In this document: positions 12,829 through 16,389 of the stretch, one piece after another | Position numbering within the stretch: the stretch's first letter is position 1 | How the letters are laid out: each line of letters starts with the position of its first letter | Assembly: GCA_029238785.1 (NCBI GenBank) | Contig: JAQWFN010000028.1 | Location: forward strand, 1-64,000 | Origin: Flavobacteriales bacterium | Lineage (GTDB): Bacteria > Bacteroidota > Bacteroidia > Flavobacteriales_D > Sanyastnellaceae | DNA length: 64,000 nucleotides | Reading direction: 5' to 3' | Made by a program: the position numbers and the translations under genes | Notes under the pieces: model-generated | The model's input: the letters and a program-made list of their open reading frames with translations, nothing else | What the model was told of the DNA's origin: nothing | Databases searched by the model: none

Positions 12829-15195
12829 TTATCCGCTGCACATTTCGCAGTCTGGGCCATTTTCGATAGAGCAAGCAGCAATGGCGTTTTGCTCGTCAAT
12901 TTGTGCTTGCGACATCGCTGTTGGTTCTTCTTTGTACTTCTTCTCAACGGTGAACTTGATGGCATCGGTAGCCGCTTTGGTTCTGAGGTAGTACATTCCT
13001 GTTTTTAATCCTTTTTTCCATCCGTAGAAGTGCATAGAGGTGAGCTTACCGAAGTTGGCGTTCTCCATGAAGATGTTCAAAGACTGTGATTGGCAAATGA
13101 ATGCCCCGCGGTCTGCAGACATGTCGAGAATGGCTTTCTGAGAAATTTCCCATGCTGTTCTGTACAAGACTTTCAAGTTGTCTGGAATCTCCTTGATGTT
13201 TTGAACAGATCCGTTCGCAGCAATCAATTTGTTCTTCATGTTCTCATCCCAAAGACCAAGCTTGGTCAAATCGCGAAGCAAGTGCTTGTTTACAATGATG
13301 AACTCACCAGAAAGTACTCTACGGGTGTAGATGTTCGAAGTGTAAGGTTCGAAGCACTCGTTGTTTCCAAGGATTTGAGCTGTAGAAGCCGTTGGCATTG
13401 GCGCCATCAACAAAGAGTTTCTCAAGCCGTGCTCTTTGATTTCTTCTTTCAAGACGTCCCATTCCCAACGCTTCGATGGAGTTACTCCCCACATGTCGAA
13501 CTGCAATTTTCCTTCAGATGCAGGCGATCCTTTGAAGGTATCGTAAGCACCTTCTGCTTTGGCCAAATCTTTCGACGCTGTAGCCGCTGCGTAGTAGATG
13601 GTTTCGAAAATGTCTTTGTTCAAAGCACGTGCTTCTTCCGAGTCAAATGGATGACGCAAAAGGATGAAGGCATCAGCCAATCCTTGCACACCAATTCCGA
13701 TTGGACGGTGACGCATGTTGGAGTTTCTCGCTTCGATGATAGGGTAGTAGTTCTCATCAATGATGCGGTTCAAGTTTTTGGTGACTTGATAAGTCACATC
13801 GAACAAACGTTGGTGGTCGAAACTACCGTCTTTCACAAACTTAGGAAGCGCAATGGAAGCGAGGTTACATACAGCCACTTCATCTGGAGCAGTGTACTCG
13901 ATAATCTCTGTACAAAGGTTCGAAGAACGGATGGTACCCAAGTTTTGTTGGTTGGATTTACCGTTAGCCGCATCCTTGTACAACATGTAAGGCGTACCTG
14001 TTTCAATTTGCGATTCGATGATTTTGAACCACAACTCTTGTGCTTTGATGGTTTGTCTTCCTTTTCCTTCTTTCTCGTACTTCAAGTAAAGTGCCTCGAA
14101 TTCTTCGTTGTGCGTATCGGTCAAACCAGGACACTCGTTAGGGCACATCAAGGTCCACTCACCATCTTGTTCCACACGCTTCATGAAGAGGTCTGGAATC
14201 CAAAGTGCGTAGAACAAATCGCGTGCACGTTGCTCTTCTTTACCGTGGTTTTTCTTCAAATCGAGGAAGTCGAAGATATCGGCATGCCAAGGTTCAACAT
14301 AAATCGCAAAAGAACCTTTACGCTTACCACCACCTTGATCAACGTAGCGCGCAGTATCGTTAAACACCTTCAACATCGGAACGATTCCGTTCGACGTACC
14401 GTTGGTTCCTTTAATGTAAGAACCTTTAGCGCGGATATCGTGAATGGCCAAACCAATTCCACCGGCATTCTGTGAAATTTTCGCGGTTTGCTTCAATGTA
14501 TCATAAATCCCACCGATGCTGTCTTCCTTCATGGTAAGGAGGAAACAAGAAGACATCTGCGGTTTCGGAGTACCTGAGTTAAAAAGGGTAGGAGTTGCGT
14601 GGGTGAACCAACCTTCGCTCATCAAGTTATAGGTGGCTACTGCAGATTCAAGATCGGTTTTGTGAATCCCTACAGAAACACGCATCAACATGTGTTGTGG
14701 ACGTTCTGCAACAACACCGTTGGTTTTAAGGAGGTATGATCTTTCCAGTGTTTTGAACCCGAAGTAGTCGTAGTTAAAATCACGGTCGTAAATGATGTTT
14801 GAATCAAGGAAATCGGCATTTTCCTGGATAATTTCATGAACATCATCAGCGATAAGAGAAGCTCTGTCGCCATTCTTAGGGTCTACATATTCGTAGAGCT
14901 CTTTCATGGTTTCAGAGAAGGACTTTTTCGTTCCCTTGTGCAAGTTAGACACGGCAATTCTCGAAGCGAGCAAAGCGTAATCTGGGTGAGTTACTGCATT
15001 TGTTGCAGCTACTTCCGCAGCGAGGTTGTCGAGTTGTGAAGTGGTTACTCCATCAAACACCCCTTCAATCACCTTCATGGCGATTTTTAGTGGATCTACA
15101 CTGGCGTGCAAACCGTAGCAAAGTTTTTTAATACGAGCTGTGATTTTGTCGAATTTCACAAGCTCCTTTCTGCCGTCTCTTTTAATTACATACAT
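12829..15195 (-). CDS. nrdA: Ribonucleotide reductase class Ia, large (alpha) subunit
   Basis: 788 residues. Reduces ribonucleoside diphosphates to deoxyribonucleotides together with NrdB. An N-terminal ATP-cone ([22 protein letters not shown], about residues 1-90) gives dATP/ATP control. The ten-stranded barrel follows with the conserved stretches [47 protein letters not shown]. The C-terminal tail carries redox cysteines in PDCEMCSG. Unusually for this phylum, the start at 15195 is preceded by a perfect Shine-Dalgarno AAGGAGG with a 7-nt spacer. It is downstream of nrdB with a 150-bp spacer containing two hairpins. Confidence 0.97.
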
Positions 15196-15202
15196 ATTAA
15201 GT

Positions 15203-15209
15203 CCTCCTT
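15203..15209 (-). promoter_or_regulatory. Perfect Shine-Dalgarno (AAGGAGG) of nrdA
   Basis: On the minus strand AAGGAGG precedes the nrdA ATG with 7 nt between. It is the only such match I found ahead of a start in the window; most other starts have A-rich leaders or none. Confidence 0.85.
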
Positions 15210-15248
15210 AAATTATATAGTTGTTTCGAAATAAAGGTTCAATTTATT

Positions 15249-15285
15249 AGGGGGATAAATCCCCTTTCTCATGCTTTTCAGCATG
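15249..15285 (-). promoter_or_regulatory. Tandem hairpins in the nrdB-nrdA spacer
   Basis: Two short inverted repeats lie back to back: CATGCT/AGCATG (15270-15285, 4-nt loop) and GGGGA/TCCCC (within 15249-15265, 4-nt loop). Neither is followed by a T run on the minus strand, so they look more like processing or stability elements between nrdB and nrdA than a terminator. Confidence 0.5.
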
Positions 15286-15345
15286 CAGTAGTTGGTAGTA
15301 GTAAAACTGCTTTTGGTTAATTAAGTCAGTGCGCTTAAAAGTGGT

Positions 15346-16389
15346 TTAGAAGTCTTCGTCCACTGAAAAACTTCTGTTATCATTTCCACCCATCACACCT
15401 GCTTTTTGGTATTCTGCTACTCGCTTCTCGAAGAAATTGGTTTTTCCTTGAAGTGAGATCATGTCCATAAAGTCAAACGGATTGCTTGCATTATAAACTT
15501 TATCGTTTCCGAGTTCAACCAGAAGGCGGTCTGCAACAAATTCGATGTATTGGGACATCAAATCGGCGTTCATTCCGATCAATTTCACTGGAAGTGAATC
15601 GGTCACAAATTCTTTTTCGATCGCCACTGCATCAACAATGATTTTCTCTACAGTTGATTTTGGCAATTTGTTCACCAAGTGCTTCGTGTAAAGCAAGCAA
15701 GCAAAATCGCAGTGCAGGCCTTCATCGCGAGAGATCAACTCATTCGAGAAGCTCAAGCCGGGCATCAAGCCTCTTTTCTTCAGCCAGAAAATAGAACAGA
15801 ACGAACCAGAGAAGAAAATACCTTCCACTGCGGCAAAGGCAACCAAACGCTCAGCATAAGAACCATTGTCGATCCAGTTGAGTGCCCAATCTGCTTTTTT
15901 CTTCACACAGTCCATGGTATCAATCGCATTGAACAGGCGGTCTTTTTCAGCAGAATCCTTGATGTAAGAATCAATCAACAAAGAGTAGGTCTCTGAGTGG
16001 ATGTTCTCCATCATGATTTGGAAGCCGTAGAAAAACTTTGCTTCAGTGTATTGAACCTCAGCCAAAAAGTTCTCCGCCAAATTTTCGTTCACAATACCGT
16101 CACTTGCTGCGAAAAAAGCCAAAACGTGTTTAATGAAATAACGCTCATCATCATTCAACTTGGTGTTCCAATCCACGAGGTCGGGATCCAAATCAATTTC
16201 CTCAGCGGTCCAAAAACTAGCCTCAGACTTTTTATAAAACGCCCAAATGTCATCATGCTGTATTGGGAAAAGCACAAAGCGTCCAGGGTTATCATCTAGA
16301 ATGGGTTCAGCTACCTGTGTGTTTTCAGGTAAAACTTGGTCGATGGTGACTTGCTGGTCTTTTTTTTCGTTCTGAGTTACGTTATCCAT
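15346..16389 (-). CDS. nrdB: Ribonucleotide reductase class Ia, small (beta) subunit
   Basis: 347 residues. Houses the di-iron-oxo/tyrosyl radical cofactor used by NrdA. Helical ferritin-like fold with ligand motifs [23 protein letters not shown] and [16 protein letters not shown]; an acidic C-terminal tail ending SVDEDF binds the alpha subunit. The first ~35 residues are a polar Gln/Glu-rich extension. The order is nrdB then nrdA, the reverse of enterobacteria. No clear promoter or NrdR box was found upstream by eye. Confidence 0.97.

Follow-up and report, generated by a model that had tools for sequence, protein, structure and literature searches.

A candidate Shine-Dalgarno site before nrdA in a lineage of Flavobacteriales that shuns such sites

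Introduction

Shine-Dalgarno (SD)-dependent control in Flavobacteriales is held to be confined to rpsU (PMC9976891). A sequence-only reading of 64,000 nucleotides from a Flavobacteriales bacterium, the whole stretch of DNA analysed here and referred to as the window, noticed an AAGGAGG motif before the start codon of nrdA and proposed that nrdA could be tuned through bS21 by the ribosome switch that has been tied to rpsU. Is this motif a start signal maintained by selection, and does it belong to the bS21 circuit?

Results

nrdA is preceded by a canonical SD motif

The nrdA gene (12829..15195, minus strand; ATG at 15193-15195) encodes a class I ribonucleotide reductase alpha subunit of 788 aa with the Pfam domains Ribonuc_red_lgC/lgN/ATP-cone. 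It is the second cistron of nrdBA; the cistron upstream of it on this strand, nrdB (beta subunit, 347 aa; 15346..16389, minus strand), has no SD at its own start. The two genes are separated by a 150-nt spacer (15196..15345, minus strand), which is 94% identical in the sister species. The minus strand at the nrdA start reads ...CTATATAATTTAAGGAGGACTTAATATG, and the same strand is also read as TATATAATTTAAGGAGGACTTAATATG. AAGGAGG (15203..15209, minus strand) was indeed found 7 nt before the ATG, behind the gap ACTTAAT (15196..15202, minus strand). It is a 7-bp complement of the anti-SD CCUCCUU with a pairing energy of -11.1 kcal/mol, and the site has the layout of a canonical SD (at least 4-7 nt complementary to CCUCC, located 5-9 nt before the start codon). 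A search of this assembly recovered no 16S gene, and the anti-SD was taken from relatives, in which it is ACCTCCTT (...GGATTACCTCCTTTTTAGAG in genera g2 and g6). The motif lies within an A+T-rich leader block of 54 nt (15196..15249, minus strand) and is surrounded by a small, weak dyad, TTAAG-GAGGA-CTTAA (15198..15212, minus strand), which is present in this genus only and whose fold could put GAGGA in a loop.

The nrdA site is an outlier in a genome with few SDs

Pairing energies were computed for 781 ATG starts in a sample of ~1.04 Mb, about a third of the genome. The nrdA site gave the strongest pairing of all, followed by one at -10.9; among the 42 called starts in the window, the second best after nrdA reached -5.6. 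GGAG or GAGG occurred at 3.5% of the sampled starts and in 3.8% of mock windows, and we rejected the idea that this genome commonly uses SDs, SD-like sites at starts being no more frequent than in mock windows. By the same kind of test, McNutt et al. judged the weaker SD hits in Flavobacteriales coincidental (PMC9976891). What marks the start regions of this genome is a raised A content around -14 to -10 and at -3. The view that the lineage shuns SDs and that nrdA is an outlier was thus borne out, and equally strong sites, which if numerous would have spoken against it, are uncommon. The 3.1-Mb genome contains 54 matches to AAGGAGG-N4-9-ATG, compared with 44 for the reversed control. On inspection of all 54, nrdA alone proved to be a clear start with a non-coding leader. 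The remaining 53 fall within other reading frames, run across them or are preceded by an open frame, although a few of those behind short frames may still be starts. Sites of equal strength occur in mock windows at a similar rate, ~1.3 per 781, and pairing energy taken by itself hence does not place the nrdA site beyond genome-wide chance. It is conservation and recurrence, described below, that raise it above chance.

A separate observation concerns the start of a MacB/FtsX-like permease gene (L374:3945, L378), which has GGAGG at -10.9 and, in the sister species, -11.9 with diverged flanks. This permease may be a second candidate SD gene, and nrdA may not carry the sole maintained SD.

The leader is conserved in the sister species

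The comparison within the genus was made with G001, the single other species available. There, the nrdA leader shows no change over its last ~50 nt, AAGGAGG included; absence of the motif from a close relative was what the sequence-only reading had named as counting against its proposal. Of the 313 fourfold-degenerate sites of nrdA, 77 (about 25%) differ between the two species. The 54-nt leader aligns ungapped with 53 identical positions, the best of ten leaders on the syntenic contig, for which the other nine gave 31-51/54. Five ortholog pairs had a dG of -6 or below in their own genome, and the site was kept only at nrdA in this set, outside which the permease GGAGG was checked separately.

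SD cores recur at nrdA within the family

We read nrdA leaders in 18 genera of the family, with gene starts called by simple rules. GGAG or GAGG was present at -17 to -5 before nrdA in g1, g2, g6, g12, g13, g17 and g18, in all species read there; g16 has GAGAG, and ten genera are without any SD core. Against a 3% background, 7 of 18 genera corresponds to a p of about 6e-7, and 4 of 8 lineages, after related genera were collapsed, to a binomial p of about 5e-5, both values belonging to a statistic framed post hoc, once the pattern had been seen. In five of these relatives 2.5% of starts contain GGAG or GAGG, and none of 23 nrdB starts does. A tree of NrdA and NrdB placed g1, g2, g6, g13 and g16 in one clade, the one to which the window belongs, with 100% support; the motif is absent from its sister group (g3, g5, g10, g11, g14 and g15), in which spacers are short except in g11. 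AAGGAGG is kept in the sister species, but the exact motif at nrdA is found in one genus only, the four other clade genera having weaker GAGG or GAGAG cores (-4.4 to -5.9) and most of the family nothing. Outside the clade, genus g12 keeps a GGAGGA core, ACGGAGGA, before nrdA in three of three species while the flanks have diverged. Across the wider order, 103 nrdA leaders gave an SD rate near that of mock windows, with no order-wide enrichment, and the SD signal at nrdA is limited to this family. A search of the literature for SDs at nrdA in Bacteroidetes found no paper.

The g12 spacer also contains short motifs, for example CCTAAAC and TTAACC, that it has in common with the spacer of g9.

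Two predicted hairpins lie between nrdB and nrdA

Two adjacent hairpins are predicted in the nrdB-nrdA spacer of all five genera of the clade (z -2.6 to -4.9). Hairpin 1 (CATGCT-GAAA-AGCATG; 15270..15285, minus strand) is replaced at the same place in the four other genera by a hairpin of unrelated sequence, the stem differing by genus and the pairing always being preserved. Hairpin 2 (GGGG-loop-CCCC; 15250..15265, minus strand) is kept in all five. Spacer length goes with the SD core: where it could be measured, the spacer is 100-215 nt long in genera with a core, and in g3, g4, g5, g10, g14 and g15 spacers of 18-76 nt coincide with its absence. Exceptions are g9 and g11, in which long spacers lack the core. 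The pattern of hairpins and spacer length suggests that, in this clade, nrdA has to draw ribosomes by itself.

The spacer is present in a single copy per genome and is nrd-specific, and we rejected the possibility that it is a repeat or mobile element. We likewise rejected a riboswitch or attenuator of a known kind, a search of the spacer at 20 loci giving no credible Rfam match up to E = 5. No TAnnTTTG was found in the spacer, which speaks against a separate Bacteroidetes-type promoter for nrdA; this is weak evidence, as none occurs before nrdB either.

The g9 spacer is an observation in its own right. This nrdB-nrdA spacer, about 300 nt before nrdA, spans ~250 nt; it is conserved, structured and single-copy, and its TTTTCACATTTTATCGATGTGAATAATT hairpin does not vary. 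It has no match in Rfam and may be a cis-regulatory RNA not described before.

bS21 retains Tyr54 and rpsU lacks an SD

Tyr54 of bS21 stacks on the 16S tail. Alignment with F. johnsoniae bS21 (7jil chain z) showed that it is conserved, so occlusion of the tail by bS21 is plausible in this lineage, in line with the premise of the sequence-only reading. The proposed parent, a bS21 circuit centred on a strong SD at rpsU, was not recovered. The rpsU start of this genus, ATTAAAAGAAAAGACA-ATG, pairs at only -1.9 kcal/mol and has no SD, which led us to reject the presence of the rpsU circuit; SDs on rpsR or rpsF in its place were rejected too, the starts of both genes being without one. The published autoregulatory circuit is therefore not visible here, and a simple extension of it to nrdA does not follow. 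Autoregulated rpsU genes typically pair below -13 kcal/mol (PMC9976891), and the 7-bp nrdA site falls outside the extended type (9-13 bp, below -13 kcal/mol), which also includes a strong SD on the rpsU of the same genome; the Tyr54 of the occlusion pocket is what the genus shares with that type. Elsewhere in the family, rpsU leaders are mostly without a strong SD, and AAGGAGG is present at rpsU in g9.

Discussion

The reading that fits these observations best, to which we give about an even chance, is that selection has maintained AAGGAGG as an SD-type start site and that the nrdA cistron it serves is uncoupled from nrdB. The structured two-hairpin spacer would separate nrdA from nrdB, so that ribosomes ending nrdB would be unlikely to continue into nrdA, and the SD core of the leader would pair with the 16S tail and position a 30S subunit at the nrdA start. 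In this class the tail is normally hidden by bS21, bS18 and bS6; the 30S subunits best able to read the nrdA SD would thus be those with a free tail, and nrdA would be among the very few SD-assisted genes of the lineage. We infer that the SD pairs with 16S rRNA, that NrdA synthesis rises as a result and that the site exists because nrdA is uncoupled from nrdB. Against a selected SD stand the pairing energy, which is not beyond chance, the other leaders that reach up to 51/54 identity, the weaker GAGG or GAGAG cores of the clade relatives, the long spacers of g9 and g11 without a core, and the finding that normal F. johnsoniae ribosomes drew no benefit from a strong SD (PMC9976891).

The motif might instead be kept because it belongs to a DNA operator or promoter region, or to an RNA hairpin formed by the dyad, and not for pairing with 16S rRNA. 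Conservation does extend beyond the motif to the entire 54-nt block, and the dyad is able to fold around the SD. This explanation is nevertheless unlikely, as the fold of the dyad is weak (z -1.6), the spacer is without the TAnnTTTG promoter element, and in the other genera the dyad is absent but the GAGG core stays in SD register.

We consider it rather unlikely that nrdA is under a bS21-tuned switch, in which scarcity of bS21 would yield free-tail ribosomes that favour the nrdA SD and NrdA synthesis would track ribosome state. An artificial 7-bp SD reporter (AGGAGGU) is raised in bS21 mutants of F. johnsoniae (PMC9976891); such a switch is also consistent with the conserved Tyr54 and the lack of genome-wide SD enrichment. 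The absence of SDs from rpsU, rpsF and rpsR means that the parent circuit is absent or built differently, and the nrdA pairing is weaker than that of rpsU. What stands of the original interpretation is SD avoidance, the outlying position of nrdA and Tyr54; the rpsU circuit does not, and the energy falls short of that typical for it.

Chance, by which one gene in a few thousand has AAGGAGG and the nrdA leaders of relatives agree through coincidence or common ancestry, is improbable: the equally strong sites in mock windows, the small excess of genome-wide matches over the reversed control and the near-mock SD rate in the wider order favour it, but the sister species keeps the motif in the face of its divergence at fourfold sites, the core recurs in four lineages of the family, and GGAGGA is retained in g12 through diverged flanks.

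A bolder reading, and one that we hold to be distinctly improbable, is that SD-dependent start selection moved in this family from rpsU to nrdA together with the structured spacer, so that the NrdA:NrdB ratio would be set by ribosomes with a free tail, such as those lacking bS21.

If nrdA carries a selected SD while rpsU is SD-less, an occluded anti-SD would still serve metabolic genes, and nrdA would offer a natural test case for the role of free-tail ribosomes. The balance of ribonucleotide reductase subunits would then be tied to translation, not to transcription.

The closest known system is the extended SD of rpsU in Flavobacteriales (McNutt et al. 2023, PMC9976891), which likewise is a lone strong-SD gene in an SD-poor genome with Tyr54 present in bS21. 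It differs in that the gene here is nrdA and not one for a ribosomal protein, that pairing involves 7 bp instead of 9-13 bp, and that rpsU is itself SD-less. In other orders of Bacteroidia, rpsR and certain further genes for ribosomal proteins carry SDs with energies of -7 to -14 kcal/mol, as far as the account of Jha et al. (2021) in PMC9976891 goes, and the nrdA site lies within that range; those genes are ribosomal and from other orders, whereas nrdA is metabolic. The genome-wide A preference at -14 to -10 and -3 resembles the SD-less, A-rich starts of Flavobacterium, described in the part of Baez et al. (2019) related in PMC8710568 as Kozak-like (A-3/A-6, A-12/A-13); unlike these, the nrdA leader places G's at some of the A-preferred positions.
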